Shown: positions 2,420-49,600 of the stretch, piece by piece
Layout of the letters: each line of letters starts with the position of its first letter
Numbering within the stretch: position 1 is the first letter of the stretch
NCBI GenBank assembly: GCA_036925085.1
Contig: JAUPFP010000001.1
Span: 11,795,854-11,859,853, forward strand
Direction of reading: 5' to 3'
DNA: 64,000 nt
DNA from: Brachycybe producta
Taxonomy: Eukaryota; Arthropoda; Diplopoda; Playtdesmida; Andrognathidae
Position numbers and translations under genes: made by a program
The notes under the pieces: generated by a model
What the model saw: the letters and a program-made list of their open reading frames with translations, nothing else
Told to the model about the DNA's origin: nothing
Database searches by the model: none

Positions 2420-3344
2420 TTATACGCAGCTGATCTTTAAGTGTGGATAAATTCGGTCGCCAAGTACCATGAACTTCCAGATGAAAGCTTGCGTACTTTC
2501 ACCTTCTTTCTGGAGCATCTCTGCATACTGTTTCTCCAAGATGGCTAGCTTGTTCGGTTTCCCGAACGTGTCCACCATCTGTACTCTCAGTTCGGGCCAA
2601 GGAATTTCCTGAAGCTCGTACCTCAGCTTGCTCAACCACGTGCAGGCGGCCCCAGTGAAACACCCAGTGAGATATTCCTCCTTATGGTTGACCTTCCAGC
2701 CATACAGGTGGGCCACTTCTTCGAATTCTTCCAGGAAGGGACGGAAACCTGGGGGCTGGTCGATAGATGAATTCCTGGACGTTTGACATTCCAGCGGGCA
2801 TTAGACATATCCATTGCGGTGGAAAATGTGGCACATAGACTGAAGTGCCTTGTGTTGCTCCTTGGCGAGGCTGTTGTTCCGGGGGTGCCGAGTGGCGACC
2901 ACTACGTGCAACCTGGACAAGCGAGTGAGGAGTCAGCACGTGTCATAATCGGTATTCCCGCACATTCGTCTCTGTGGCGCAGATTATCTGACTGTTCTAT
3001 GGCTTGTTGCCAGTCAGGGTGACACAGTAGATGACGTGGGTGCGGTGTGTAGGGTCTGTCGTAACGATCGTGATGATCTCTATAGCCAACATAGGGGACT
3101 GAAGAGGTATCAGTCATCGTCACGACGACGGTATGTGCGTGTTGTCCGCCGTGGTGTAGTTGGTGAATTCGGCGTGAATCGGTCGTCTATGAGCTGGGAC
3201 GTTCGAGTTGGCCACTTGTTGTGACAGGTTATCAAACTCGGCCCCAGTCGGTCGTGGCGGTGGTGTCGCATCAGCGATGGGTGCATCCAACGGATCCTCG
3301 TGCGAATCTTGGTGATCAGGCAGGGACTCCGTAGGGTCTTTCAA
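2420..3344 (-). pseudogene. Gypsy-type Gag N-terminal and capsid part (frameshifted)
   Basis: Three overlapping minus-strand frames make one decayed Gag. Codons at 3344-3120 are Pro/Asp-rich; 3123-2902 contain the stretch around HPDWQQAIEQS; 2716-2420 hold a capsid-like block with GAACTWLSKLRYEL, a feature of Gypsy capsid domains (small-residue motif, then a W-x-x-L helix), and a YAEMLQKEGESTQAFIWKF segment like the major homology-type region. At least two frameshifts break it. No ATG is obvious at the 5' end; the frame at 3344 opens with TTG. Confidence 0.6.
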
Positions 3345-3958
3345 GCAGAAATGATTGATGATGCAGCTTGTGTAATGCGGATGTGCGGTGACAAACGAGT
3401 CCGACTAAGTCCAAGTCGGTGTGTGCAGCTCCGAGGGTTCTCGAGTACACTCTGAGCTATACTTTTCGGTTCCAGTATGATGGGACTCGTTCAGTTCGTG
3501 GAGTTGTAGGTTGGTGACGTCACTGTGTGCCGGTAATTTGGTGCTTTTGTCGGTAACCGACACTATCGTACCCTTATACACCGAGTAACGATAGTTTACC
3601 TATGCTTGTGACGTGTGTAACGAAGTGGCCGTTCACTCCATTAGTGTGGTGATGATTGTATCGTGTTGGTTGTGTCCTCAGTTGGGCGTGTGGTGATTTT
3701 TGGTTCCCAACTGATGTAGTGTCGTGAGTTCTTTATTGAGTGTCGGATTTTAGAAGGATCTCTTTCAACACGTGGTATATGGCGACCACGTGGAGGTTAT
3801 GAGAATTCCAAGTCTCAAAAAGAAACAGCAGATGTACAATGCAATATCGACCATGGTACACCACCCAATCGATATTGCACTGCTGGAAGTGAATTGGAAA
3901 TGAAAGAGAACTGAAGTTGCCTAAAAAAGAGGCAAGCAATACGAAGAGTAAAGCTAGA

Positions 3959-7312: not shown

Positions 7313-9048
7313 TGCAAACCTGCAACGTACGAGTAAGTATATTTTACACGATTCTTAGGGCAGATTTACGGACGAAAGTTCGAGAGATACAGAGATTAAA
7401 GATCCTGTGAAGTCTTTTGCCAGAGACTAGTGAGGACATAAAATAGACGTTATATTGGTCTAGTCCTCCCGGGCCAGTAGAATTAGTGACCTAGCCAATC
7501 ACTATCAATACGAGTGCAAACTCGCTCGTATTAACCAAAAAGAGCAGATTCTACTAACGGAAAAAGGTCCGTCACAATATAATAGTTTGAAAATGATCCG
7601 ATTTCAGGTTTTTCATCAACATTTCATAAAATACATTTACGCTTTTTTTAAAACTGTAATTAACAGTTTATTTTGTAAGATACAATCATGAAAAAACGAT
7701 TAGCATTATCACTGGGTGATACATAGAGGATTCATCCATTCAGCCAGCCACCCAGTACCGTCTTTACTATAAGGGCACACGGGGCCCTCACGAGGGCCTC
7801 GACAGGCCGATATCTTTGCTTACACGAAAAAAAAAGAGCTCACATTTTTTTCTATTTTTAGGTAGATACCTACTAAGAATTAGCGTCAACATTTCTAAAT
7901 TGAAATGTTAATGTTAGGTGTAGAAATCCCAACACACAAACACCTAACATATTCAAAATGATACGATGAGAGTAAAATAATAAATTAATTAATTAAAGGT
8001 AAAATAGTAACAAAACAAGGAAGTAAGTAAACAAAATTCATTCTTAAATCACATCCTGCCTTTGATAAAACTTTTTATGTGCTCTATAGAGTGAACAAAG
8101 AAGTTTCAAAAAAAGAAAGTAACGAAGAGAAAATAAAATAAAGAGTTAACAATTAATAACAACTAAATTATTATTAATAATTTGGTTATTGATTAATATT
8201 TAAAATAAATTATTAAAGGATGTTCAAACGAAAAAATTATTTAGATAAAATAATCCAAATTCAATGGAAGAACACAAAAAAATTTGATGAAAATTATGCA
8301 AATTAAGAAAATAAAGTTAGGGAGAAAAAACAATTAAAAATAGTTTATCGAAATTAAACAAAAAAAGGGTTAATAAAAAAATTATTACGAAAAACAAAAA
8401 CAGGATGAAAACGAAAAGAGAAACGATAGAACGCTACATAACATTAGACGACGGAAACTTGAAGTCAAAAATAAGACACGATAACATCGGAGTAAAGGCT
8501 TAACGTAGGATATACATAGAGAAACATTAACTACACAAATTTACAATAACAGGAAACAACATTCTGGAACAGTAAGTTATAAAAGAGGTTTAATTTAGTA
8601 GACTCTCGGAATTGGAAGTAGTAAGTCGAACTTAGGAAAAGTGGTCTAAAAAGTGGTAGAAAGTGGAGAGTTGGGATAAAGAAACAGTGCAATAGTGATC
8701 AGTGGGAATCTACAAGCCAAGGAATTTGTGTGTAGTGGGAATCTACCAGCCAAGGAATTTGTGTGTAGTGGGAATAACAAAGGGAAAAAGGAAAAGGAGA
8801 CACCTAGGATTTGTGTGTGCCTGGAGAGTACCTAAAAGAAAACACCAAGGAAAAGTAAGAAAAAATTTTGTTTATTATTTAGATTTGGCCAATATTTATA
8901 GTTTGTTTTTGTCTTTTCCTGTAATTTTACAAAAAAAGAGGGAAAGGGGGTTACTTATTAGGTTGTAGAAATAGAGAGAAAACAAATAAATATTCTCTAT
9001 AGCTAAAGCCCAGAAAAGTTACATCAAGGGTTAAGAAAAGGAGGGGTA
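7313..9048. other. AT-rich non-coding stretch
   Basis: No gene seen. It contains a perfect hairpin AATACGAG / CTCGTATT (7507-7532), an inverted repeat ATGTTAGGTG / CACCTAACAT (7911-7950) and a TATAAAAG near 8578. TGTTAGG at 7912 is an alternative left end for the LTR of the ERV-like element that follows; if so, that LTR would be about 1.6 kb and this TATA would be its promoter. Confidence 0.4.
8701..8775. repeat. 33-bp tandem repeat, about 2.3 copies
   Basis: The unit starting AGTGGGAATCTAC and ending GGAATTTGTGTGT occurs twice in tandem with one mismatch, plus a partial third copy. Confidence 0.8.
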
Positions 9049-9496
9049 TGTCAGGGGTATGCATTTTGGTTAAACTTTGCCCAAACCCTGGTCTTTCCAT
9101 AGAGAATTAGGAAATAAATAGTGCTGAAAAAGGCCTCATAGTAAAAGTGGAAACAAATACCCCAGAAGCAGACTAATAGCTATTTAGAAACAGAAAAGGG
9201 TCTGAGATAAATGTGTGTACTTTGAAATTTATACAGGGTCACAAGAGTATCAGTTCTTTTTGTGTTGTGTTGAGATAAGACAAATTGTAATAATCAAAAT
9301 ATTCAAGTACGTAACTGGTATATAATCTCATGTAATCTATTATAATAAAATAAACCAAATAACCATATAACTGGCCCGATTTGTCATAGAAGCCTTCATT
9401 GGCTTAGGACCTGAAAAATAAAATAACCTTTTCTCATTTGGGGTAGAACTACATTACCCTATTGTCCATTTCTCGAAAGGACAGTGAGGAATAACA
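9049..9496 (+). repeat. Probable 5' LTR of the ERV-like element
   Basis: The right end is well placed: ...ATAACA at 9496, then AG and a primer-binding site. A polyadenylation-type run AATAAAATAAACC lies near 9344. The left end is uncertain; TGT at 9049 gives a 448-bp LTR with TGT...ACA ends, while TGTTAGG at 7912 would give a much longer one. There is no second copy in the window to decide. Confidence 0.5.
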
Positions 9497-9498
9497 AG

Positions 9499-9516
9499 TG
9501 GCGCAGTCGACAGGAT
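9499..9516 (+). promoter_or_regulatory. tRNA primer-binding site
   Basis: TGGCGCAGTCGACAGGAT begins with TGG, complementary to a tRNA CCA end, and closely resembles the serine-tRNA-type primer sites of insect 17.6/297-like elements. It starts two bases after the proposed LTR end. Confidence 0.75.
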
Positions 9517-10430: not shown

Positions 10431-11109
10431 ACCCCGGAACCAGTCTATTCCGGTTCTAAAAGTAAAACCATTTCGCAAACCCGAAACGACCGTTGCAGAA
10501 GCAGCTGGGCCTAGTACCACTAGGGAACCGGAAACTGTTCGTATCGTTTCCCAGGCAGTCGCCCAAGTGAGCCTAAATACTAGACACCAGCCATCACCAA
10601 TTCGAGAGGAACCGGCAGTGGCACTGACAAATAACCAACCAGGTCATTCAGTTGTACCAATTCGAGAGGAACCGATAGAAACCCCTCCAAGATGAGAAAC
10701 GGGCCATGGGAATCGAGAAACGGGCAGTGGAAATCGAGAAACGGACAGTGGAAATCAAGAAACGGGCAGTGGAAATCGAGAAACGGGCAGTGGAAATCGA
10801 GAAACTGAAAATCCTCCATCACAAGCGACCTCGAATGTTCCGAGACAGTCTGTTATGCAACGAGCAACTGCAAATGCCTTACGAGCTATAAGGGCATTGG
10901 AAGATCAGCCACGCAGACCACAAGCAAACCAGACGGGCTCGGGAAGACCGTCCAGAGAAGCATCAGGAACAGGGCCACCTAGAACCTCGCCACAATCACG
11001 AGAGACGAGACAACAAGCGTCCCAAAATAGGACCCAAATGGCTAATCCAGTCAGGGGATTAAACGGGCCATTTTATATGCAGGACGGGTTTTGTTTTTAT
11101 TTGGATTAA
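10431..11109 (+). pseudogene. Pre-gag low-complexity ORF with in-frame TGA
   Basis: One frame is open from a stop near 10428 to 11109 apart from a single TGA near 10693. It encodes a Pro/Glu/Thr/Gln/Arg-rich protein with two copies of PIREEP, a run of 7-residue repeats (variants of ETGSGNR) made by a 21-bp minisatellite, and a basic C-terminal part (MQRATANALRAIRALEDQPRR). It lies between the primer-binding site and the Cys/His ORFs. No ATG opens the frame, so the coding status is uncertain. I recognise no domain. Confidence 0.4.
10694..10805 (+). repeat. 21-bp minisatellite inside the pre-gag ORF
   Basis: About five tandem copies of a 21-bp unit (GAAACGGGCAGTGGAAATCG plus one base) keep the frame, giving a 7-residue repeat. 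Confidence 0.85.
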
Positions 11110-11215: not shown

Positions 11216-11450
11216 ATGAGCTTCAGTATAAATGGACTAGTTGCCTTGTGTTTTACCTTGGTGCCCAATAACCCCAAATTGCGAAATAATTGATTTAGGA
11301 GCAGATGATCACAATATTTTATGTGTTACGCATTTACACATTTATGATGCGGAAGAGTTTAAATTCTGGCTAGAAGTGCTTGAATTGTTGCGAAAAATAA
11401 AGATTCTGTGTCAATTATTAGACAGACTTCGAATGAACCTCGAGGAATGA
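11216..11450 (+). pseudogene. Accessory Cys/His-module protein A (frameshifted)
   Basis: The body of the ORF reads LPWCPITPNCEI, then CVTHLHIYDAEEF, then a Leu-rich helix ending LLDRLRMNLEE. Its layout matches accessory protein E (12688-12909) along its length: WCP-x4-CEI, C-x2-H, Y-x2-EE-F/Y, W, and a leucine-rich C-terminal helix. An ATG at 11216 begins MSF, as in protein E, but lies in another frame, so one indel near 11240-11255 separates start and body. The stop TGA overlaps the next ATG (ATGA at 11447-11450). C3H spacing suggests zinc binding; function unknown. Confidence 0.6.
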
Positions 11451-11761
11451 GCGAAGACACATATCTAACCCCAACCACTGGAACTATCGCGACTGTGTGT
11501 CCCTATACAAGTATCTGTTTTAGAGCTCCTAGCGATCTAAACAACCCATATCAGTGGAAGTGTTTAAGCCACGATTTTAACTTTAGTATCCGAAGTTTCC
11601 CATATATAACATTAGGAAGACCGAGATCTTCAAACGTACAAGCTTGCCTGGAATATAACGAATTGCATAGGTTTCTAGATTCATTCATATTGCCACCACC
11701 ACCAATTAATGAGATCAGAAACTTCTTTAATAAAATAAATTTCAGTCAGCATGAACAGTAA
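11447..11761 (+). CDS. Accessory Cys/His-module protein B
   Basis: An ATG at 11447 overlaps the stop of ORF A in ATGA. The protein of about 104 residues has ATVCPYTSICF, then KCLSHDF, which is the same CP-x4-C ... C-x2-H core as its neighbours with a longer interval between the pairs. A Pro-rich stretch and a C-terminal helix follow. It ends TAA at 11759-11761, 11 bp inside ORF C. No known family is recognised. The overlap pattern is typical of compact viral gene blocks and suggests coupled translation or leaky scanning (inference). Confidence 0.55.
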   Translation: MSEDTYLTPTTGTIATVCPYTSICFRAPSDLNNPYQWKCLSHDFNFSIRSFPYITLGRPRSSNVQACLEYNELHRFLDSFILPPPPINEIRNFFNKINFSQHEQ

Positions 11762-12008
11762 TGGTGAATGTGTTAGTGGATGTCCTTTAGGATCTCATTG
11801 TATTTACATTATTGAGAAGGGTACGGGAAAGGTAAAGTGTGTTTTTCACCACAATATATATCAATCAGAGGAGTTTTATCAAGGTGTAAAAGAATTCGAA
11901 GAAATACAAAAACGGGACCAGGAAAGATATGAGCATTCCAAAACAGACAGTTGTTCCAGAGTGTCCAATAGGCCCACACTGTATAATAAGATTTCACAAA
12001 GAAAATAA
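11751..12008 (+). CDS. Accessory Cys/His-module protein C
   Basis: ATG at 11751; 85 codons. Core: CVSGCPLGSHCIYII, then KCVFHHNIYQSEEF, the clearest example of the repeated module (CP-x4-C, C-x2-H-H, Y-x2-EE-F). It is followed by a highly charged helix (VKEFEEIQKRDQERYEHSK). The C-terminal 27 codons overlap the beginning of ORF D in another frame. Likely a small zinc-binding protein; role unknown. Confidence 0.6.
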   Translation: MNSNGECVSGCPLGSHCIYIIEKGTGKVKCVFHHNIYQSEEFYQGVKEFEEIQKRDQERYEHSKTDSCSRVSNRPTLYNKISQRK

Positions 12009-12171
12009 GAAAGTTGCCGAGTACATTATTTTTGGCATTGCACAGGTAAATGTGTAATTGGTTGCCCATGTAAAACAGATGTAAAATCTATTGCATTCAA
12101 AAGAAACAGTTTTGACATAGAAGAGGACTTGGGATCATGCTTGGAATCCTTATTCTCTCAAGAAAATTAAG
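11929..12171 (+). pseudogene. Accessory Cys/His-module protein D (one frameshift)
   Basis: ATG at 11929 opens MSIPKQTVVPECPIGPHCII, again a CP-x4-C pair, then a Lys-rich segment. Near 12020 the frame must change by one base to continue with YFWHCTGKCVIGCPCKTD and an acidic tail (FDIEEDLGSCLESLFSQEN) ending at 12171. Two CP-type motifs suggest two half modules. Too short and broken to be an obvious gene on its own; its identity rests on similarity to its neighbours. Confidence 0.5.
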
Positions 12172-12189
12172 AAAACTGAATTTTTAAGT

Positions 12190-12663
12190 ATGAAGGTTTC
12201 CACAAAAGTAGCTATTGAAGTTTATCACATAGAAAAGGGATCAGGAGAACACATTACATTAAGTTTATTACGACAAATTTATCGACTTGCAGAGGAGGCT
12301 CTAAATAAGGATGTACCAGCATTTGAGTTGATTGCCCGACAATTGCAAGTGGATCCAAATATAGAGACAGACCTAATTACTTTGTTAAATGAAGTTTACC
12401 AAGGAAGTGCTTCATTGGGTAAGGTAATTGTAGCCTATGCACTTGTGATACAGTTAGCAAGGTCTGAATTTGAGGAAAGCATAGCAGTTATTATTGGTGA
12501 TTACATATTCGAAAAATCGGCTGTATGGTTTCAGACAAATGGTGCATGGAGAGTCATGTGTGAAGAATACAGAGATCCTCAATTGAGTCTATCTGATGTA
12601 ATACAAGTAGCCCCACAAATATTAATGGTATGCACTTTGTTACTAGTGTTAATGAAAATGTAA
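12190..12663 (+). CDS. Bcl-2-family-like protein encoded by the retroelement
   Basis: An intact 157-residue ORF starting at an ATG 18 bp after ORF D. Features in order: an N-terminal helix; a BH3-like segment (residues 26-38, LLRQIYRLAEEAL, with small Ala then Glu where Gly-Asp is usual); PAFELIARQLQV; a BH1-like segment (about 68-87) in which SLGK stands where NWGR is typical, followed by a hydrophobic helix; a BH2-like segment (113-121, WFQTNGAWR) with both tryptophans and the glycine; and a hydrophobic C-terminal anchor (137-155). Size, order and spacing fit the Bcl-2 fold, whose members control apoptosis at mitochondrial and ER membranes. BH1 Trp is missing and Arg is Lys. Whether it blocks or promotes death cannot be told. 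Fold assignment is inference from motifs. Confidence 0.6.
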   Translation: MKVSTKVAIEVYHIEKGSGEHITLSLLRQIYRLAEEALNKDVPAFELIARQLQVDPNIETDLITLLNEVYQGSASLGKVIVAYALVIQLARSEFEESIAVIIGDYIFEKSAVWFQTNGAWRVMCEEYRDPQLSLSDVIQVAPQILMVCTLLLVLMKM

Positions 12664-12687
12664 AGGAAAATTGGTAAATTTTGAAGG

Positions 12688-12909
12688 ATGAGTTTTATTC
12701 CATATGAGTTTCCATGGTGTCCAGTTAATCCTTTCTGCGAAATATTTGAGATACTAGGAGGAGAGTCACCAGGATACATTTGTTATAGACATTCACGTAA
12801 TTATACTCAGGAGGAATATGAAACTTGGCATACGATATATGAGCTACTATTGAAATTAAGAGAAATATTCCAAAGGTTAGACTACTTTGAGATTATAGAA
12901 GAATTATAA
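12688..12909 (+). CDS. Accessory Cys/His-module protein E
   Basis: ATG at 12688 after AAGG; 73 residues. MSFIPYEFPWCPVNPFCEIF, then YICYRHSRNYTQEEYETW, then a Leu-rich helix (LLLKLREIFQRLDYFEI). It is the full-length paralogue of ORF A and shows what A looked like before its frameshift. Core C-P-x4-C and C-x2-H suggest a single zinc site. The stop TAA shares a base with the next ATG (TAATG at 12907-12911), so E and F are tightly packed. Confidence 0.65.
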   Translation: MSFIPYEFPWCPVNPFCEIFEILGGESPGYICYRHSRNYTQEEYETWHTIYELLLKLREIFQRLDYFEIIEEL

Positions 12910-13529
12910 TGAATAGTGACAAGAATCAGGAACAGGAACAAGTTCAGAATCATCCTGGAAATACTGCAACTTGAACCCAAACCCTGTTTGGCAAAATTGG
13001 TCAAGAAATTCTACGGAGCACACAAAACATACAAGTGAATCGGGAGTTCAAAGAAACAACTTTTATTTTCCAAATTCCGAAAGGGACTGGGATCTACAGA
13101 TAGCCTGGGAAAATAGAACCCTTGAACGCATTTCTGACGAAAGTACAAATCAAACTAAGAGATGTAGGGTTGAAAATTAAAGAAGCTATTATGAGTACAG
13201 AAAGAGTGCAATATACTTGTCTAATACTCGAGTGTAAAATAGTTTATTTTGCTGAATACGGTTGTGTTGAATGTGAAACACATAACAGTAGATACACTAT
13301 AGCAGAGTTTCTTTTCAGGTGTCAGAGAGAAGAAAGCATAGCTATAGTAGCTTTCGAAACGGATACATTTGAAACAGAGCCAATTCACAAAATACTTACT
13401 AGATGTAGGGAAAGGTGTCTTAGATCAAGAGACTGTCATTTTGAATGGGTAAGAAATAACAGAAATCCGAGAAAGTATCGTTGCACTACACAAGGATTTG
13501 TGGTAAATGAAAATTTAGAGTTTGTTTAA
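12909..13529 (+). pseudogene. Accessory Cys/His-module protein F (two in-frame stops)
   Basis: From the ATG at 12909 one frame runs 206 codons to 13529, interrupted by TGA at 12972-12974 and TAG at 13101-13103. The N-terminal part is Gln/Glu-rich (MNSDKNQEQEQVQ). The C-terminal part has YTCLILECKIVYF, then GCVECETHNSRYTIAEF, a variant of the module with an extra cysteine. Further cysteines follow (RCRERCLRSRDCHFEW, YRC). An internal ATG at 13191 would give an intact 112-residue product, so the C-terminal half could still be expressed. No family recognised. Confidence 0.5.
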
Positions 13530-13603
13530 AATTATTTGGGAATAATCATCAAAATAGCTACTGAAGGGTCATCAAGCGGATCTGGAGGTGGACAACCTTC
13601 ACA

Positions 13604-14793
13604 GATGAACCACACCAGCTTAATTCCATTCTTTTCGGGAGATGACAAAGGTCCTTCCGCAAAAGAAATATTTGAGCAGTTAGAAACAGTTGGAAGACTG
13701 GCAAATTGTTCAAAAGAATTCCAAATTGTTCTGTTTAAATCAAAATGTCAAGGTCCAGCGGCGGAATTTTTTCGAGACCATCCCGCTGTTAGACAAATTA
13801 CGGAGATCAAAGAACTAAAGGAATTGATCATCCAAAGATTTGAACCAATCGAACCAAAGTTAGTTTCTATGCAGAAGTTCTTGGAAAAAACAGAGCAGTT
13901 CGGAATCGGCCATAGAGTATATTTCTAGAGTAAAAACAAGAGGTAGGGCATTCACGAGCGAAACTACAACAGAAGATGAAATAACAATGAGAGACGAAAT
14001 GATTCAAAATCAGATCATAAAAGGTCTTCATCCTAAAATCAAAAGATTTGTTTTGTCAAGAAATCCTTTTGATCTAGATGAGACTATAAAGATATTTCTA
14101 GTAGAAGAAGAAAATGAAAAGCTAGCAAGTGCAAGATACGGATTAAATGTCTTAAATGAAGAGGATCCAGAAACAAATCTTTTGAAGAAGGTAGAAGAGA
14201 AAATAGCTAAAATCGAGTTACAAAACAAGAAGGAGATAGTGGCTTTAGAGGACAAATACAAACGAGATTTAGAGAAAGTCACAAAGGAAAAAGAGGGAAA
14301 AGCACAAAACCAAAGTAGCAAGGACATTGAATGTTATAGCTGTCATAAAAGGGGACACTATGCCAAAGACTGTTGGAGCTGGAACAGAAATGTACCACAA
14401 CAGCCTATCAGGGTCAATACACCAAGAAATGGTTGGGAGACAAATGAAGCATACACTCCACAGCAATGGACACAAACACCACAAATGGGAAATGGTCAAA
14501 CTAACAATGTACAAGGGACAAACCAGAACACAGACAGGTGTTTTAGATGTGGAAAGACAGGTCATTTTGCAAGAGATTGTCAGGAAAAAGTAGGAATGAA
14601 TTCAGGTTCGAATACTTCAAACGTTATGTGTTACAAATGTGGTAGACAAGGTCATTATGCTAGAGATTGTAGACAAGGAAACAATACACAGAATAGAGGT
14701 AGACAAAATTTTAGACGAAATGTTCAGGAAAACTGGAACCTCCTTTGTGGAATAATACGCGTCATCGAGGGAGTTCGTATAAAAACTGCGTAA
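13604..14793 (+). pseudogene. Gag of the ERV-like element (frameshifted)
   Basis: The structural protein that would assemble the particle. The first ATG in frame is at 13604; the frame is open from about 13536. Capsid-like part: LIPFFSGDDKGPSAKEIFEQ and FKSKCQGPAAEFF. A one-base shift near 13900-13910 moves the rest into another frame. Then come a coiled-coil, Lys/Glu-rich linker (about 14150-14310) and three nucleocapsid knuckles: CYSCHKRGHYAKDC, CFRCGKTGHFARDC and CYKCGRQGHYARDC. Three knuckles is more than the usual one or two for Gypsy elements. The end overlaps the protease frame by 49 bp, as for elements that make Gag-Pol by frameshifting; I see no clear slippery heptamer. Confidence 0.85.
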
Positions 14794-15470
14794 TCTTAAA
14801 CATTGTCAAGACAAGCACTTGTCCTGTTTTCTTAGCTCAGTCAGGAAATAATTTCATAAAGATGGTATACGACACAGGAGCAGGTATATCGGTTATCTCA
14901 CGAAATACTTTCGAAAAAATAACAGAACAAAATCCTCAGTGTATAAGGTATATACAAACAGGTCGATATGTTGAAATCACTGCAGCAAATGGGCAGCCTT
15001 TTCCAACAATTGGGTTATATGAGATACCTATTAGGATAACAGCTGATAAAACCGAAAAAATAGCAGTGCATGTAAGTCACAAAAATCTACCTGAAAAATA
15101 CCAAATTATATGCGGAATTAACTTAATAAAGGGACTGGGACTAAAATACTATCCCTTAAATGACAAAATCATATATTGGAGGAAAAAAATTAAGACGATT
15201 CGAGGTGAGAAAATAGACTTACTTAATATGTTACAGTTGAAAAATGAAAAGGAATGGTTGAGAGATAGAGTTCAGGAAACAGAAAAGGAACATCAGGCAA
15301 AAATGATAGAATTATTGAGAAAAAATGAGGACATATTTGCAAATTCAATGAAAGATCTAAAAGCAACACCATTAGTTGAACAGGACATTCCGATGTTAGA
15401 CAATGTTCCAGTATTCATAACACCTTACATTACCAGAGAGACAAGAGAAGGTAATGAAAGAGAAAATTGA
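14745..15470 (+). pseudogene. Retroviral-type aspartic protease and Pol linker
   Basis: YDTGAGISVISRNTF is the active-site loop of a pepsin-like retroviral protease (D-T-G-A), with the second conserved block near QIICGINLIKGLGL. The protein continues into the N-terminal part of RT (LRKNEDIFA, then DIPMLDNVPVFI). The frame is lost near 15447 by what looks like one extra base, after which the RT continues in frame +1. This frame lies at -1 relative to the 3' part of gag. Confidence 0.85.
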
Positions 15471-16752
15471 TGAATTTCTAGATGCTAAAATCATTAGACC
15501 ATCAATGAGTCCTTATTCAGCACCATGCATGTTGGTGGGCAAACCAGATGGCAGTCACAGGTTAGTTGTTGATTACCGAGCTTTGAATCAAAAGGTCGTT
15601 AGTGACAAATACCCTTTACCTGAACTACTAAGCGTTAGCAATCAACTAGGGAAAGCAAAATATTTTTCTACATTGGATCTTGCTAGTGGATTCCACCAGA
15701 TACCGGTAATAGAAAGGGACAAAGCCAAGACAGCATTCAGTACACCATTTGGACATTACGAGTTTAACAGGTGTCCGATGGATTTGAAAACATCACCTAG
15801 GGTTTATCAGAGGTTAATGGATAATGTTTTACATGGTTTAAAAGGTAAAATATGCTTTGTTTACATGAATGACATCATCGTGTATAGTGAAACAGTAGAG
15901 GAACACTATGACAGGCTTCAACAAATCTTCAACAAGTTATGAGATGCAAAGCTTATGGCAAAACCAACAAAGTGTATTTTTCTGCAGACAGAGATTAGTT
16001 ACCTAGGACATAAATTTACAGAAGAGAAAATACAACCAGGCATGAAGAAGATTGATGCTGTCAAGAACTTTCCAAGACCTCACAATGTAAAGAAAATTCA
16101 AAGTTTCATTGGTTTGGTTAACTTCTACAGAAAATTTATTCCAAATTGCGCAGAGGTTGCAAAACCTTTAACAAAGTTATTATCAAAAAATGTACAATTT
16201 AAGTGGACTGAGGAATGTGAAAGAGCGTTTGAACAATTAAAAACAAGTTTGACCACGTATCCAGTCTTGCTCATGCTTGATTTTGAAAAAGAGTTCTATT
16301 TGACAACAGATGCTAGTAATAAAGCAATAGGTGCAATTTTAGAACAAAAAATTGATGGACAGTTACATCCACTCTCATATGCGAGTAGGAAATTGAATAA
16401 GTCAGAACAAAATTATTCAACAACCTGGAAAAAAGCTTTAGCATGTGTATATGGAGTCAACTACTTTAGGTACTATCTAATGGGTAGAAAGTTCACTCTA
16501 ATCACTGATCATCGGCTGCTAAGGTATCTAATGACAATGAAGAAAGATAAAGCTATGTTGACAAGATGGGCATTGCAATTGCAACAATATGATTTTACAG
16601 TTCTTTATCGGGTAGGAAAAGAGAACACCAATGCAGATGCATTAAGTAGAAACCCAACGGAAAGCTTAGAAATTAATGTCTTAGAAAGTGATAGTTGGGA
16701 AGATAGCGAAGTAGTGAAAGACCAGGAACAATGTCCAGAGTTGAAACTTTAA
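15454..16752 (+). pseudogene. Reverse transcriptase and RNase H of the ERV-like element
   Basis: RT blocks in order: SAPCMLVGKPDGSHRLVVDY; FSTLDLASGFHQIPV (first catalytic Asp present); the central box YMNDIIVYS, in which the first Asp of the usual Y-x-D-D is Asn; then YLGHKF and the thumb. RNase H follows: TTDASNKAIGAIL, TDHRLLRYL and NTNADALSR are present, but the helix usually carrying the catalytic Glu reads YSTTWKKALA, so that residue is lost. An in-frame TGA lies at 15940-15942 and a TAA at 16750-16752. Enzymatically dead as it stands. Confidence 0.9.
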
Positions 16753-18236
16753 ATTAAGTGTTTACACGGTTGTCCAGTTGATAGACGATTAAGACAAAAA
16801 GTTGAGAGATTACAATTATACTTGAATGGAAAAGGGTGGTTAGTTAAAACTTCAGAATCAAAACCCAGAATAGTTGTTCCAATCTCAAAAAGACCGTATG
16901 TAACGAGAATGTGTCACGACAATATAACTTCAGAACATCTAGGAACTGAGAAAACAACCAGTAAAGTGGAAAACAGATTCTTTTGGGAGACCCTGCGTAA
17001 AGATGTGAAAACATACTGCGAAGCATGTGTCACATGTAATCAAAAGAAAATTCCACAGGGAAAGAGTCCTTTAAAGAAGTTTCCTCCACCATCAAACCAT
17101 TTGAAAGAATAGGTATGGATGTTTTAGGACCACTACCAACAACGGCCAATGGAAACAAATACATTGTGGTGATTTGTGACTATTTGACCAGGTACCCTGA
17201 AGCTTTTGCTGTACAAGATCAGAAGGCAGAGACAATTGCTAGTTTACTCACAAGAGAAATATTTTCAAGATACGGAAGTCCAAAAGAATTGATCACTGAC
17301 AGAGGTGCAAACTTCACCAGTGAATTAATGAGAAATCTGTGTGAAACATTCAAGATACACAACATTTTCACATCAGCTTATCATCCTCAGACAGATGGGT
17401 TAGTAGAAAGGTTTAATAGGACATTGACAACAATGCTTTCACACTATGTAGATAATTCTCAAAGAAATTGGGACGAGGAATTACCTTTAGTTTTGATGGC
17501 TTATAGAAGTACTGTACACTCAAGCACAAACAAAACTCCTTATTATGTATTGTTTGGTCAAGACATGAACCTACCATTCGAGTTAATAAGTGAAGAACCA
17601 AAACCAGTGTACAATGTAGAAGATTACTCAAAAGTTTTGACAAATAGAATGCAACAAATTCATAACTTGGCAAAACAAAGTTTGGAGAATTCAGCAAACA
17701 AACAAATCAAGTATCAAGGTGCAAAAAGAAAGAATGAAGGAATCGAAGTAGGGGATAAAGTTTACCTATATGTACCTCAAGTGGCCCAATGAAAGACCAA
17801 AAAATTGGCTAGGTTGAACAAAGGTCCATACCGGGTAATAAGGCAGACATCCCCAGTTAATTTTGAAATCAAGCACATGTACAAAAGCAAGGATATTCAA
17901 ATTGTCCATGAGGAAAGGTTAAGACTTGTAAGAAGTGTTAATCCATGGGAAAAAGGAAATGAAAAAACCAAGGGAGTAGGCACTGACAAAGAGCAATCAA
18001 AACGGAAACTGAGTTCCAGTAGCTCACAAAGTTCGGATCCAGATCAAGATGATGATGATGATGAAGACAATGACCTAGCACACACTCCAACGGCGACAAA
18101 ACAAAGTCAAACAGGAATAATTCGGAACCCAGAGTCCGTACCTAGTACAAGCCGATATGGATTGCGAAGCAAAGTCCAGTTCAGTTTACATCATTACCAG
18201 AGCGTACGAGAAGAGTTCAACCGAGAACAGAAATAA
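16753..18236 (+). pseudogene. Integrase of the ERV-like element
   Basis: The zinc-binding N-domain has CHDNITSEHLG and YCEACVTC (His/His and C-x2-C). A one-base shift near 17090 precedes the catalytic core: MDVLGPLP (first Asp), ITDRGANF (second Asp) and DGLVERFNR (Glu) keep the D,D-35-E triad. An in-frame TGA at 17790-17792 splits off the C-terminal part, where LNKGPYRVI is the GPY/F module of Gypsy integrases. The tail is Ser/Asp-rich with a run of seven Asp/Glu residues encoded by GAT repeats. It would insert the DNA copy into the genome. Confidence 0.88.
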
Positions 18237-18978: not shown

Positions 18979-19050
18979 ATGTTTATAATTTTATGTATTG
19001 GTTTGTGTTTATTATTGTTCAAATTTACTATTGTTTTAAGAAGTGTTTAA
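18979..19050 (+). other. Possible 23-codon hydrophobic ORF
   Basis: ATG to TAA encodes a strongly hydrophobic peptide (MFIILCIGLCLLLFKF...), sitting between the two env ORFs. It could be a remnant of a transmembrane segment or signal peptide rather than a separate gene. Confidence 0.3.
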
Positions 19051-19057
19051 AATAAGT

Positions 19058-20302
19058 ATGGTAATCGGTGTCGCTAGTGGCAACAAAGTAAAAACAAAGG
19101 TCAATAGAATTACAGATGGATATAAAAGATTGGAAGAAGGAGTGAGACCACAAACAAGTACAATATCGTCAACAGTGGTTTATGTTATTGTAATTGTTGG
19201 TTTAGTACTCATGTTGATATCAGGCATCGGAGGTCAATTCACTGAGCATAAAATGATGAAATCAAGTATTACAGAATGTCAAGAGACCGGAATGGGAATA
19301 CAATGTTCATTAGCCACATCGATTCAACTCACATTAACGGCTTTAGAATATACTGCTTGCTTATGGTTTAGTGATAGCCAGGAAAACCAAGTAGCTAGTT
19401 TAGAAGTTAAGTTTGAAAGTGTAGATTGCGAGTGGAGTACACAACTTTCATACTATACCTTTCCTACAAAAATGTTTACGATCAATCAGGTAGCATGTCC
19501 TCAAAACAAATATTGTGGGTGGGGGATCATAAATTTGCTGATATATTTGCTGAATATTTTTGCTGATTATAAATTTGAAATGTTAACACAAGAGTCTTTA
19601 GATTGGCCAGGAGTAACAGATTGTCACGCAGCAGATTCAGGGTGCATTTGTTCTTTGAATAGTTATCAACCATGTCATCATTATAGATGGTGCTTGAAAC
19701 CAGATTATCAAAATATCTTTGAAGTAAAAAAGGTAGTCGGATCAAAATGCAGACCCAAGATAAAAGCAACGTTCAAGAATAACGGTACGGAAACAGAATA
19801 CATGATAACTTCATTAAGAAATGAACCAGGTCATTTCTACATCGAAATTGTTGGCGTATTTGACCAAGCAACAGACATTATTTCAAAACATTTGGTTGTC
19901 AAATTTAGCCACATTATTGAAGCATACTTAGAAACAGCGGCTGAGGTTTATAGACCATTGAGAGGACAAATAGGAGATGTCCAATCAGGAGATCCTATTC
20001 CATCTCAATTCATCTTTGACAAACGAATGGTGCAGTGCAAGTTCTACGATGATCAAATGGATTGTGAAAAGGTAAAATCATATCTAGAGATCATGATGCA
20101 GACGAAACAGAATTTATTACCAATGACAATCATGAACAACAAAATGTTTGCTGAAGAAGGTGGACAGTTAAAATCAACTTTAGTTGCATCCAGCCCAGCA
20201 GTTGTGTTCATCACGGTTGAGAACTATAAAGTGGTAATCAACACTATTCGAGTGTGCCCGAGAATACAAAAAATTGCCCACCATATAGCCCAATGGCTAT
20301 AA
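19058..20302 (+). CDS. Env: class II (phlebovirus Gc-like) fusion glycoprotein
   Basis: An open frame of about 414 codons (ATG at 19058). After a short basic tail comes a hydrophobic segment (STVVYVIVIVGLVLMLISGI) that would act as signal or anchor, then a Cys-rich ectodomain with about 19 cysteines. The order of blocks, SSITECQETG, a C-W-S-T ... SYYTFPT stretch, ACPQNKYCGWG, SGCICSLNSYQPCHHYRWC and GSKCRPKIKATF, resembles the G2/Gc fusion domain of phleboviruses, which some LTR elements carry as Env. Such proteins merge viral and cell membranes. No C-terminal transmembrane anchor is seen; the ORF ends just where the element loses similarity, so the tail is probably missing. Assignment is from the cysteine pattern. 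Confidence 0.6.
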   Translation: MVIGVASGNKVKTKVNRITDGYKRLEEGVRPQTSTISSTVVYVIVIVGLVLMLISGIGGQFTEHKMMKSSITECQETGMGIQCSLATSIQLTLTALEYTACLWFSDSQENQVASLEVKFESVDCEWSTQLSYYTFPTKMFTINQVACPQNKYCGWGIINLLIYLLNIFADYKFEMLTQESLDWPGVTDCHAADSGCICSLNSYQPCHHYRWCLKPDYQNIFEVKKVVGSKCRPKIKATFKNNGTETEYMITSLRNEPGHFYIEIVGVFDQATDIISKHLVVKFSHIIEAYLETAAEVYRPLRGQIGDVQSGDPIPSQFIFDKRMVQCKFYDDQMDCEKVKSYLEIMMQTKQNLLPMTIMNNKMFAEEGGQLKSTLVASSPAVVFITVENYKVVINTIRVCPRIQKIAHHIAQWL

Positions 20303-43400: not shown

Positions 43401-45068
43401 CCTGATGTTAGAAAGCAATAACAGCAACCAGAATAAAAAAAAACTAGAAATCCACTTGAATCTGGTTTAATCCCGTTACAAATGGATTATTTCAGATAGG
43501 ATTAGAAATGAACAAATTAAAGTTCTCATGAAATTTCTATTATTCAAATGGCCGCCATTTTGTATGAATGATGACGCCAGCTTTAAATTCAATTGAAACT
43601 TTAATTTTCGTTTCATAAAAGGAAACGATTTTCTTTTTTTAAAAAAAACTCCGAGAATTCTAATTACTCTTTATGACAAATCAATCCGATCAAGGATAAT
43701 AACAGTACGCGCCACAAGAGGGCGTCGCATCGAAAGTCTGGCAGACCATTTTTTTTTTTTAAAGAAAATTGATTCAATTATCCCAAAAATGAAAATGTAA
43801 GAAATATTTCATTTTAACTTCTTTTGTTGCATAACCAAAAAAAAATGGGTTTTGGTGTTTCAAAGATATCAGCAAAATGAGATTCTGATGAATTTACAAT
43901 TAATTGGAAGGGGAGGCAGGGAGGTGCCTGTGACGTCACACTTTATTTTCTTCTTCACCTTGTGGAATACAAAACACCTTTTTTCAGATTGGCTAGGCAA
44001 AACTAATCGAAAAATGTGTTAAAAAAACGAAAGAAGTAGCAGTAAGGGACTCTCCCTCTCTCACCCACCTCACCCCTTTCTGCCGACTTCTCTGTTTGGC
44101 TTCCGTCCAAAATGATTAGGAAATTAATGTAGAGGGCAGCACTAGCGCAAATATCATAAATAACCTTTTAAAATAATATTTATACTCCAATATTGAAAAC
44201 TAACGAGTACTTAAGTGCTAAAATAAAAACCTAAAGTTGGAATAGCTAAATTCGACATGTGCTATAAACATTGTATAAAAGTGGTTGAAAACATGCTAAA
44301 TTAATAACAGCTAAACTAAACGAGGTTTAACCTAAAGGCCTATCTATGATGATTGGGGCACTTTTAGAGTTTTAGTTTTAAAATTTGTTCAGCTTTAATT
44401 GAGTTTCCAGAGCTTAAAATAATTTATTGTGTTCAGCAATTTTTTGCATTTATTTAGTCTCATTTTGTCTATCACATAATTGACTTTAGCATTTATATTA
44501 AGCTCTGGTCTAGTTTTAAATTAATTTAAATTAGTAGGTCACTGTAGGTACCACTTTGTTTTAGCTCTTAATTCGTTTAGCACTTGGTTCAGTTAAGCAT
44601 CTTTTTAGCATTTTACTTTTAGTCCGTTTAGGTTCTTGTTAAATAGCCTTAAAACCTTCAACCATTATCCTATTTGGTTTATGGTTAAATACTTTTTGTT
44701 TAAGCTCTAATAGAGTTTCATTTTTATTAGTTTGTAAGTTGTTTTTTCTCCCTTCACTATAACTAGTTATGAAGAAACCATTTACATTTGTTATAAATGA
44801 ATGAATTTACTTTTGTTCTCGATATTTTTTTGTCGGTAAGTCAAAGATGTTGCAATATTTTTTTTGTAGTTAATTTGAAAAGTGTAGCAATAGAAAGAGA
44901 GAGAGGGAGGAGAAAAAGAGAGAAGAGAGAGAGAGAGAGAGGGAGGAGAAAAAGAGAGAAGAGAGAGAGAGAGAGAGAGAGGGAGGAGAAAAAGAGAGAA
45001 GAGAGAGAGAGAGAGAGAGGGAGGAGAAAAAGAGAGAAGAGAGAGAGAGAGAGAGAGGGAGGAGAAAA

Positions 45069-45099
<31 letters not shown>

Positions 45100-45110
45100 G
45101 GAGGAGAAAA

Positions 45111-45148
<38 letters not shown>

Positions 45149-46263
45149 AGAAAAAGAGAGAAGAGAGAGAGAGAGGGAGGAGAAAAAGAGAGAAGAGAGA
45201 GAGAGAGAGAGAGGGAGGAGAAAAAGAGAGAAGAGAGAGAGAGAGAGGGAGGAGAAAAAGAGAGAAGAGAGAGAGAGAGAGAGAGGGAGGAGAAAAAGAG
45301 AGAAGAGAGAGAGAGAGAGAGGGAGGAGAAAAAGAGAGAAGAGAGAGAGAGAGAGGGAGGAGAAAAAGAGAGAAGAGAGAGAGAGAGAGGGAGGAGAAAA
45401 AGAGAGAAGAGAGAGAGAGAGAGAGGGAGGAGAAAAAGAGAGAAGAGAGAGAGAGAGAGAGGGAGGAGAAAAAGAGAGAAAAGAGAGAGAGAGAGGAAAA
45501 AAAGAGAGGGAAAGAGGGAGGAAAAAAAGAGAGAAGGGAGAGAGGGAGGAGAAAAAGAGAGGAGAGGGAGGAAAAAAAGAGAGGAGAGGGAGGAAAAAAA
45601 GAGAGGGAGAAAATGAGAGAGGGAGGAGAAAAAGAGAGGGAGGGAGGAGAAAAAGAGAGAGAGGGAGGAGAAAAAGAGAGAGGGAGGAGAAAAAGAGAGA
45701 GAGGGAGGAGAAAAAGAGAGAGAGGAGGAGAAAAAGAGAGAGAGGGAGGAGAAAAAGAGAGAGAGGGAGGAGAAAAAGAGAGAGAGGGAGGAGAAAAAGA
45801 GAGAGAGGGAGGAGAAAAAGAGAGAGAGGGAGGAGAAAAAGAGAGAGAGGGAGGAGAAAAAGAGAGAGAGGGAGGAGAAAAAGAGAGAGAGGGAGGAGAA
45901 AAAGAGAGAGAGGGAGGAGAAAAAGAGAGAGAGGGAGGAGAAAAAGAGAGAGAGGGAGGAGAAAAAGAGAGAGAGGGAGGAGAAAAAGAGAGAGAGGGAG
46001 GAGAAAAAGAGAGAGAGGGAGGAGAAAAAGAGAGAGAGAGGAGAAAAAGAGAGAGAGAGGAGAAAAAGAGAGAGAGAGGAGAAAAAGAGAGAGAGAGGAG
46101 AAAAAGAGAGAAAAGAGAGAGAGAGAGAGAAAAAGAGAGAAGAGAAAAAGAGAAGAGAGAGAGAGAGGAGAAAAAGAGAAGAGAGAGAGAGAGAGAGAGG
46201 ATAAAAAGAGAAAAGAGAGAGAGAGAGGAGAAAAAGAAAGAGAGAGAGAGAGAGAGAGGAGAA

Positions 46264-46296
<33 letters not shown>

Positions 46297-46300
46297 AGAA

Positions 46301-46338
<38 letters not shown>

Positions 46339-46452
46339 AAAAGAAAGAGAGAGAGAAAAAGAGAGAGAGAGGAGAAAAAGAGAAAAGAGAAAGAGAGAGA
46401 GAGAGGAGAAAAAGAGAGGAGAGGAAGGAGAAAAAGAGAGAGCAGAGAGGAG

Positions 46453-46489
<37 letters not shown>

Positions 46490-46648
46490 AGAGAAGAGAA
46501 AAAGAGAAGAGAGAGAGAGGAGAAAAAGAGAAGAGAGAGAGAGAGAGAGAGGATAAAAAGAGAAAAGAGAGAGAGAGGAGAAAAAGAAAGAGAGAGAGAG
46601 AGAGAGAGGAGAAAAAGAAAGAGAGAGAGAGAGAGAGAGAGAGGAGAA

Positions 46649-46681
<33 letters not shown>

Positions 46682-49600
46682 AGAAAAAGAAAGAGAGAGA
46701 GAGGAGAAAAAGAAAGAGAGAGAGAAAAAGAGAGAGAGAGGAGAAAAAGAGAAAAGAGAAAGAGAGAGGAGAAAAAGAGAGGAGAGGAAGGAGAAAAAGA
46801 GAGAAAGAGAGAGGAAGGAGAAAAAGAGAAAGAGAGAGGAAGGAGAAAAAGAAAGAGAGGAAGGAGAAGGAGAAAAAGAGAAAGAGAGAGGAAGGAGAAA
46901 AAGAAAGAGAGGAAGGAGAAGGAGAAAAAGAAAGAGAGGAAGGAGAAGGAGAAAAAGAAAGAGAGAGAGAGAGAGAGAGGGAGGAGAAAAAGAGAGAGGG
47001 AGGAGAAAAAGAGAGAGGGAGGAGAAAAAGAGAGGGGGAGGAGAAAAAGAGAGGAAGGAGAAAAAGAGAGGAAGGAGAAAAAGAAAGAGAGAGAGAGGAA
47101 GGAGAAAAAGAAAGAGAGAGAGAGAGAGGGAGGAGAAAAAGAGAGGAAGGAGAAAAAGAAAGAGAGAGAGAGAGGGAGGAGAGAGAGAGAGAGGGAGGAG
47201 AAAAAGAGAGGAAGGAGAAAAAGAAAGAGAGAGAGAGAGAGAGGGAGGAGAAAAAGAGAGGGAGGAGAGAGAGAGACAGAGAGGGAGGAGAGAGACAGAG
47301 AGGGAGGAGAAAAAAAGAGAGAGAGAGAGGGAGGAGAAAGAGGAGAGAGAGAGGGAGGAGAAAGAGGAGAGAGAGGGAGGAGAAAAAGAGAGAAGAGAGG
47401 GAGGAGAAAAAGAGAGAAGAGAGAGCGAAAAAAAGAGAAGAGGAGAGAAGAGAGAGAGAGAGAGATCCATTTATTTTACTATTTGAGTGATTTATTCAAC
47501 ATCCTTTTTTTTTCTTTGATTCGCTCATTAACTTCTTAATTACAGACTCAAATAATAAATATCCTGTATAAGTAATCCTGTTACAGCAGAAAAACTGTTA
47601 ATTATTACCAATAAGGACCCAATATCTGATTTTAAAAAAGAAGCATTTTATTAATAACGGGCCCAAAAATCAGACATTATATTATTTTATAAAATATTCT
47701 TTTTAAAATGTAAAAAGAATATTTTAGAGAGAGGGAATGGAGGAACAAAAAAACACAAAATTGCGACATCTACAAATTATAATTTGAGTTCATTATTATT
47801 ATGATCCATGCTGCGGATGCGTATACCGAGCATCTCTCTTCACCAGTCAATTACATGTATTCCTCATCACATATACATTCAAACATTTGCAAATGCGTTT
47901 AACGAGTATTTCTAATTTGCCATTCAAACTTTTACTATCTATTCCCGTGGGGGTTGTTGGTTCACTATCGGGTGCCTCCCCAGGTGGCGGATAGGGGAAT
48001 GCCCGCCAGATATGGAGGGTACTGAGGGCATAAAATACTCAGGGCAGACCAAAACCAAACCACGCCATTGCCGGTCTCCCAGCCCGGGTGCAAAAGTGGA
48101 GGGTCGACGTCAGGTTGGCAGCCGGTTGTAAAGATTTGCCAAAATATATATTGGTTCCAAATAGTATTCCGAATATGGCTAGGGCGTCCCCCGCCATAAG
48201 CGACGCGCAGCTGCAACGCCCAGTGGCTGTGACAAATTGGAAAGGGCTACCCCACAGTGGACGGGTGGGGCTAAAGAAGCGAGTCCAGCATCAACAACAA
48301 GGAGGTCTTGGAAGTAGTGGTAGAAGTGGAGGTACTAAACTTAGGTTTGGCACCTGGAATATAGGGAGTTTGACAGGGAAGACTAGGGAGTTATCTAGCG
48401 TGCTAAAGGCTAGGAGGGTAAATGTTGCATGTCTGCAGGAGACAAGATGGAAAGGTGATAAATCCAGGAACATTGGGGATGGGTACAAATTAATTTATGC
48501 CAGTAGTGAGGAGGGTAGAAATGGAGTGGCGATTGTCCTAGATCAGGAACTCGGGACATAGTGTGGTTGAGGTTAGGCAGATAAATAGTAGGCTGTTAGT
48601 AGTAAAGGTAGTTTGGGGTGGCATTGTTATAAATGTAGTTAGTGCATATGGCCCCCAGGTTGGATTAGATACAGCCAGGAAGCTAGCATTCTGGGAACAG
48701 TTTGATGACCTGATGTTGGGCCTGAGTAGGAAGGAACGGGTCATAATTGGTGGGGACTTTAAAGGACATGTAGGTAGAGGTAGGGAAGGGTATGAAGAGG
48801 TACATGGTGGGTGGGGCTATGGAGAGCGAAATAAAGCAGGGGAGAGTATCCTGGAGGCAGCAGTGGCACATAAGTTAATTTTAGCAAACACTATTCCAGA
48901 AGCGAGAGGAACATTTGATTACTTTTAAGAGCAGGGCAGGAGAATCCCAGATTGATCTCTTCATGATTCGGAGTGAGGATAGAAACGAGTGCAAGGATTG
49001 TAAAGTGATACCGAGTGAAAACTTAGCGGGACAACATAGGATAGTAGTGTTAGACCTAAAACCTAGGGGTGCAAAACAGGTGGTCAGACATAGAGGAGAG
49101 ACAGCAATTAGGTGGTGGGCATTACCAGACAAGGTGGAAGAGTTTAAGAAAATAGCAGGTAAGATAGCATGAGATTTAGATGGCACTGCAGGAGAGCTGT
49201 GGACAAGGGTAGCACAACAGATCCGTGATTGTGGAAACGAGGTACTAGGGACAGTACGAGTAGGGGTCTCGATTAGACAGAGAAACTTGGTGGTGGGATG
49301 AGGAGGTACAGATGGCAGTTAAAAAGAAGATGCTTTCAAGACTTGGTGGCACAATGGAAGCAGGGAGGCCCAACAGCAGGTAGCCTTAGCAAAGCATAAG
49401 AAATATGTGGACATGTATGCCAAGTTAGGTACCAGAGCAGGAGAAGTGGCAGTATATAGAATAGCTAGGGCTCGGGAGAATAAAGGCAGAGATATTGAAA
49501 AGGTGGTGAGTGTCAAGGATAATGGGGGCAACATATTGTGGGGTAGAGAGCCAGTACAGAACAGGTGGGAGGAATATTTTAGTAAGCTTATGAATGAGGG

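Follow-up and report, generated by a model that had tools for sequence, protein, structure and literature searches.

A Bcl-2-family gene probably carried by a Ty3/gypsy retroelement of Brachycybe producta, with its nearest relatives in Polinton-like DNA elements

A 64,000-nucleotide stretch of the Brachycybe producta genome (hereafter the window) contains a Ty3/gypsy retroelement with a phlebovirus-type envelope gene. In its leader, upstream of gag, lies an open reading frame (ORF) that is probably a real Bcl-2-family gene of this element, of viral type, acquired, and probably anti-apoptotic. Its closest relatives are genes of Polinton/adintovirus-like elements and not the Bcl-2 candidate of the host, a relationship that is new here. 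The element is likely to be the first of the reverse-transcribing kind known to possess a Bcl-2-type survival factor of its own, having received the gene from a Polinton/adintovirus-like DNA virus integrated in the germline genome of an arthropod.

The Bcl-2-like protein

The preliminary description of this DNA, made from the letters alone, had assigned the ORF to the Bcl-2 family, and the profile match bears this out. In Pfam, the window protein matches only PF00452 (Bcl-2), with an E-value of 2.3e-4 and a score of 22.1 bits, which is below the curated cut-off of 31.4 bits. The alignment joins residues 33-120 of the protein to positions 4-100 of the 100 in the profile. All 11 aligned copies, among them that of the window, match the same family, the best E-value being 1.9e-5, and the three other Pfam families that appear among these copies are matched by one member each, with E-values of 0.042 or worse. 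Searched alone against the sequences of the PDB, the window protein finds chains of Bcl-2, Bcl-xL and Bcl-w at E-values of 0.006 and above; a profile of the 11 sequences reaches 1.2e-4. A profile built from ten diverse element-borne copies reaches Bok with an E-value of 1.9e-6, and the best 60 of its 168 PDB matches are all to Bcl-2-family proteins. Neither the Pfam matches nor these best 60 PDB matches include a better match to another family.

The order of blocks typical of a Bcl-2 protein, which had also been read from the sequence, holds for the BH1-like block, the BH2-like block with its W-x6-W pattern, and the hydrophobic tail. It holds less well for the BH3-like helix, which is aligned but degenerate. 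The names BH3, BH1 and BH2 are presumptive assignments that follow the usual motifs of the family. The usual BH3 motif has a Gly-Asp pair. In the window protein, the helix-like stretch LRQIYRLAEEAL aligns at the BH3 place, and the Gly-Asp is replaced there. In a residue-by-residue alignment with Bcl-2, Bcl-w and Bok chains and with a host ORF, the order and spacing of BH1 and BH2 are kept.

The similarity could be that of an unrelated helical protein merely resembling Bcl-2. Such an explanation can draw on the Pfam score of the window protein, which stays under the cut-off, and on the fold searches. These used a poor single-sequence model (mean pLDDT 46.7) and returned Bcl-xL and Bcl-2 chains among weak matches, with unrelated helical proteins ranked above them. 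It is nevertheless hardly credible, given that every aligned copy matches PF00452, that a Polinton-borne relative (L035) passes the cut-off with 42.6 against 31.4 bits, and that the best 60 PDB matches belong exclusively to the family. Relatives of the window protein were found neither in the protein collection at an E-value of 0.01 or below nor in IMG/VR; since the host is an animal, these negative results carry little weight.

The retroelement in the window

The element shows the domain order of the Ty3/gypsy type, namely gag with CCHC knuckles, protease, reverse transcriptase, RNase H, integrase and env (Table 1). As the preliminary description had it, the 157-codon frame is intact and situated in the leader of this env-bearing element. 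The leader measures about 4 kb from the primer-binding site to gag, the site at 9499 being presumably the primer-binding site, as in other gypsy elements. The hallmarks of LTR, primer-binding site and purine-rich tract are complete across copies: the window provides the 5' LTR and the primer-binding site, the copy on contig C7 a primer-binding site, and the copy on contig C35 a purine-rich tract preceding its 3' LTR. A 33-base tandem repeat of 2.3 copies (8701-8775) is present inside the 5' LTR of the window.

Table 1. Coordinates of the retroelement features and of the Bcl-2-like ORF in the window
Feature	Position	Strand	Match or remark
5' LTR, TGTTAGG...AATAACA	7912..9496	+	72% BLAST match (7911-9496) to the 3' LTR of the C35 copy
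Presumed primer-binding site, TGGCGCAGTCG...	9499..9514	+	11-mer shared with the C7 copy (L043:5853), where it also follows the LTR
Leader ORF, Cys-rich, kind 'PWCP..pxC...C.TH', from TTG in the window copy	11241..11450	+	
Leader ORF, Cys-rich, ATGA overlap with the preceding ORF	11447..11761	+	
Leader ORF, Cys-rich, overlapping the end of the preceding ORF	11751..12008	+	
Bcl-2-like ORF, 157 aa	12190..12663	+	Frame intact; PF00452 match
BH3-like helix (degenerate), residues 27-40	12268..12309	+	Aligned with the pre-core helix of host ORF L037 and of Polinton homologues
BH1-like block, residues 65-84	12382..12441	+	Lys78 versus Arg in aligned Bcl-2 and Bcl-w chains
BH2-like block, residues 112-124 (WFQTNGAW)	12523..12561	+	W-x6-W = W113-W120
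C-terminal hydrophobic segment, putative membrane anchor, residues 137-153	12598..12648	+	Mean Kyte-Doolittle 2.23 (hydrophobicity only)
Leader ORF, Cys-rich	12688..12909	+	
Leader ORF, Cys-rich, last one 5' of gag	13191..13529	+	
gag, in two ORF pieces, the second with three CCHC knuckles	13536..14793	+	PF00098 4.2e-16, 3 stretches
Protease region	14745..15470	+	PF13975 9.5e-4, below cut-off
Reverse transcriptase	15454..15942	+	PF00078 5.5e-25
RNase H	15955..16752	+	PF17917 4.9e-37
Integrase	17115..17792	+	PF00665 2.4e-12
env, phlebovirus-type glycoprotein (Phlebovirus_G2)	19043..20302	+	PF07245 9.7e-20

The window copy itself is defective. No LTR matching the first one was found after env within the window, so the 3' end of the copy is incomplete, and a search for repeats inside the window yielded no LTR pair. 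In addition, gag and pol are broken up into several ORFs, not all in the same frame. The earlier remark that pol is full of stops was thus right in kind, but long open pieces remain.

Errantiviruses are defined by an envelope of the baculovirus F type. The env of the window element matches Phlebovirus_G2 (9.7e-20) and is not of the F type; a classification as an errantivirus-type gypsy element was therefore rejected.

In these elements the leader consists of some seven or eight small ORFs, mostly Cys-rich, arrayed like an operon, in the window (11241-13529) as well as at L004:548-2848 and L063:122-2689. Eight of the leader ORFs were checked, and none had a Pfam match above the cut-off. In the C7 copy (L004), forward ORFs of at least 60 aa cover 98% of the leader at 548-2848. 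Coverage of the opposite strand is 11%; 200 two-base-block shuffles gave a mean of 3% and a maximum of 21%. Neighbouring ORFs of this leader are spaced by -74 to 25 bases, with an ATGA overlap among them. The dense packing, the overlaps and the short gaps suggest that the leader may be one RNA read by reinitiation or splicing.

Recurrence in other gypsy copies and selection

Comparison of the window protein with its own genome gave 150 scored matches among 156 candidates. Four other copies are 82-93% identical to the window protein and have open frames. A Bcl-2 gene occupies the leader position upstream of gag at seven of the 132 gag loci compared: the window, one locus each on C35, C53 and C7, and three more on C1, the contig of the window. 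The screen had flagged ten of the 132 by distance, of which seven were kept and three set aside. One of the latter was dropped for having its Bcl-2 match on the wrong side. The other two are Bcl-2 fragments near a distant gag; L061 appears to be of the Polinton type by its residues, and L062 looks like a Polinton piece, with a Polinton ORF adjoining it.

In four copies on four contigs (C1 with the window, C7, C35 and C53), the Bcl-2 gene and gag are 876-887 bp apart. Similarity between the C7 copy and the window sets in at the 5' LTR, to within about 16 bases, and that between the C53 copy and the window ends inside the leader at 11083. For the C35 copy, no 5' LTR was found, and the upstream stretch fetched has no match to the window. 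Six stretches of 2 kb from outside the shared element sequence of these four copies were compared with one another. No BLAST match was obtained for 14 of the 15 pairs, which fits separate insertions; the remaining pair shares a 55 bp match.

The ratio dN/dS lies between 0.19 and 0.40 in all ten pairs of five copies. Fisher's test, applied to five of the ten pairs, gave p-values of 0.004 to 4e-8, the pairs not being independent of one another. These ratios show that the Bcl-2-like ORF has evolved under purifying selection and has been maintained as a gene, and its recurrence with such ratios in other copies means that it is not a chance frame.

Instead of being a working gene of the retroelement, the ORF might derive from a piece of a Polinton that inserted into a gypsy copy, or next to one, and was then copied along with it. 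This genome is indeed rich in Polintons whose Bcl-2 genes are close relatives, the fragments L061 and L062 look like Polinton pieces near a distant gag, and no copy complete from LTR to LTR was found among the window (which lacks the 3' LTR), C53 and C35. This origin is very improbable, however, as the spacing of Bcl-2 gene and gag is repeated on four contigs and the C7 match begins at the 5' LTR, with outside stretches unmatched in nearly all pairs. Furthermore, the window leader matches none of seven Polinton proteins, and purifying selection is seen across the copies.

Considered as a gene of the retroelement, the Bcl-2 gene is carried by only some of the gypsy lineages in the genome. The deepest gypsy copy (L053) has a gag that is 87% identical in protein and about 69% in DNA. 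Its Bcl-2 remnant (L053:773-1123) is 42% identical, still matches PF00452 with an E-value of 9.6e-4 and sits on a very long tree branch (1.51); either fast change or replacement may account for it. Upstream of gag sequences at 64-69% identity, no Bcl-2 match is listed within 8 kb. In one of these subfamilies, represented by L063, the leader (2.8 kb directly upstream of gag) is made up of small ORFs, the majority of them Cys-rich, and lacks a Bcl-2 gene.

Relatives in Polinton/adintovirus-like elements and the host candidate

The nearest kin found of the window protein come from the same genome, where Polinton/adintovirus-like DNA elements encode them, and are 52% identical to it. Matches at 48-53% are numerous, and the loci fetched for them are not gypsy elements. 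A RING-finger ORF (PF13920, 4.9e-12) accompanies the Bcl-2 ORF in 24 of the 24 best-scoring loci (L007-L030). In these, as in L032:167-1100, the Bcl-2 ORF and the 90-aa RING-finger ORF stand side by side on opposite strands. Among four further loci of this common Polinton group, a RING match was obtained for L038, L040 and L042, and L039 is without an element match. Many copies are identical or nearly so, and the Polinton-like element with Bcl-2 and RING genes has therefore probably been active recently.

A 9.9-kb piece of such an element (L032) matches the Pox_A32 packaging ATPase (8.6e-6) and the integrase family rve (2.1e-15) together with Chromo (6.7e-8, above the cut-off). It also has a dUTPase and a weak adenain-like protease match (Peptidase_C5, 0.0066, below the cut-off). 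Judged by these predicted genes, its make-up is that of a Polinton/adintovirus. A capsid candidate (L032:7468-8793) had no significant Pfam match. An 801-aa ORF of L065 has the residues YTDTDS, which we take to be a PolB motif, but it found no polymerase match in Pfam or the PDB.

Three more Polinton subfamilies harbour distant Bcl-2 copies, namely L033, L034 and L035, and no RING match was found in the stretches fetched for them. L033 is of the Polinton type and has two Bcl-2-like ORFs in tandem (2821-3792), whose identities to the window protein are 33% and 26%. For the distant Polinton genes overall, identity to the window protein is 29-35% for three (35%, 33% and 29%) and 26% for the fourth. 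L035 is closest to Bok and Bak.

On the host side, a 264-aa ORF (L037) matches PF00452 with an E-value of 3.4e-21. Like the window protein, it belongs to this Pfam family; it differs in being only 27% identical and in its surroundings, as its 7-kb locus gave no match to any of nine element-protein queries. By these sequence features, L037 is probably a host Bcl-2 gene. It is the one ORF that represents the host in the identity and tree comparisons.

Trees and the direction of transfer

The Bcl-2 genes of the gypsy elements form one clade, comprising six of the 21 sequences in the tree (support 90/87), or five of 19 when L053 is left out (99/100). In the tree rooted with the host, they are nested inside the Polinton set, with L035 (96/89) and L034 (81/46, weak) branching off before them. 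Constraining the Polinton genes as a whole to monophyly is not rejected (AU p 0.095), and the same holds if only the ten common ones are grouped, next to the gypsy genes (p 0.41). Owing to the long branches of the host, L033, L034 and L035, the deep placements are unsure. On the gag tree, two changes are needed to explain the presence of Bcl-2, one change being enough in only 4% of 200 bootstrap trees, and a single gain is thus unsupported by this tree.

Because the gypsy Bcl-2 genes cluster together, one transfer from Polinton to gypsy is the simplest history. The favoured, though not proven, interpretation of the sequences is that the gypsy lineage acquired its Bcl-2 gene from a Polinton-like DNA element, probably once. 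Gypsy and Polinton elements may also have captured a host Bcl-2 gene separately, or the gene may have passed from gypsy to Polinton. The AU result for Polinton monophyly leaves room for such histories, and so does the host comparison, which is limited to L037. Yet they are unlikely in view of the identities, which are 52% between gypsy and Polinton against 27% with the host ORF and 26-35% with the four other Polinton genes. They also agree poorly with the nested position of the gypsy genes in the rooted tree and with the occurrence of the gene, which is found in four divergent Polinton subfamilies and for which no match upstream of gag is listed in the sister subfamilies of gypsy.

Possible function

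The known behaviour of the Bcl-2 family suggests how the gypsy protein might act. It would be translated from the dense, operon-like leader RNA, and its hydrophobic tail would insert into the outer mitochondrial or ER membrane. The groove formed by BH1 and BH2 would bind BH3 helices of host death proteins, which would postpone the death of the cell during replication of the element. An anti-apoptotic function of the gypsy protein is probable by family resemblance, pro- and anti-apoptotic action not being readable from sequence. That a retroelement possesses such a gene suggests that the cells of its host can die when it is active, and that even for an element inherited through the germline it pays to devote a gene to preventing this.

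A protein with the Bcl-2 fold may also have another role, such as pro-apoptotic particle release, Beclin binding in autophagy or membrane remodelling. In arthropods, members of the family often contribute only mildly to cell death. The degenerate state of the BH3-like helix and the position of the Polinton relative L035 nearest to Bok and Bak point the same way. Against such a role, the constant linkage of the common Polinton homologue to a RING-finger ORF (L007-L030) fits a cell-survival module, albeit indirectly and with L033-L035 lacking the RING match. Taking both sides together, a role other than the anti-apoptotic one is considered rather unlikely.

Relation to known systems

We know of viral Bcl-2 proteins only from large DNA viruses. 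One example is A179L of African swine fever virus (PMC2572728), and the herpesviral and poxviral vBcl2 proteins have a hydrophobic tail (PMC7695858). The protein described here resembles these homologues in being carried by a virus-like entity and, in the herpesviral and poxviral cases, in its tail; it differs from them in its carrier, which is a reverse-transcribing LTR element. Within the genome, the Polinton/adintovirus-like elements L032-L035 and L065 are likewise Bcl-2 carriers and provide the nearest homologues found. Unlike the gypsy element, they are DNA elements, and the Bcl-2 gene of L032 adjoins a RING ORF instead of lying in an RNA leader.

The capture of extra genes has a parallel in the LTR retrotransposons of bdelloid rotifers, which, according to PMC5408684, have taken up ORFs of the env, GDSL esterase/lipase, DEDDy exonuclease and dUTPase types. 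Both cases involve extra genes that are common to other classes of elements. In the bdelloid case, the genes are described as shared among retroelements, whereas here the Bcl-2 gene is shared with DNA elements.

Both viral Bcl-2 proteins and LTR elements that capture genes are already known from these sources, and no earlier report of a retroelement with a Bcl-2 gene was found in the literature searched. The founding paper on adintoviruses may mention Bcl-2-like or RING accessory genes, so the Polinton half of the finding may be known already. No paper treating adintoviruses together with Bcl-2 turned up in the literature searched. The same literature, including passages of PMC11071296, PMC10812802, PMC8363768, PMC8097293, PMC13172572 and PMC8998228, showed neither a retroelement nor a Polinton with a Bcl-2 gene. 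Both words, "polinton" and "bcl-2", occur in the texts of PMC6431247, PMC4202336 and PMC6505742.

The relationship described here would make LTR elements and Polintons partners in gene exchange. It suggests that two very different genomic parasites have exchanged a gene that may keep host cells alive. If this is true, retroelements and DNA viruses share one pool of death-control genes.

Other observations

Two further features were recorded. An 897-aa open frame at 44797-47490 of the window consists of a low-complexity Glu/Arg/Lys repeat; both strands are open there, and by its appearance the frame is a simple-repeat artefact. As fits an arthropod, arrays of the TTAGG repeat are present in the genome, with 558 + 7295 pattern hits versus 4 in the control.
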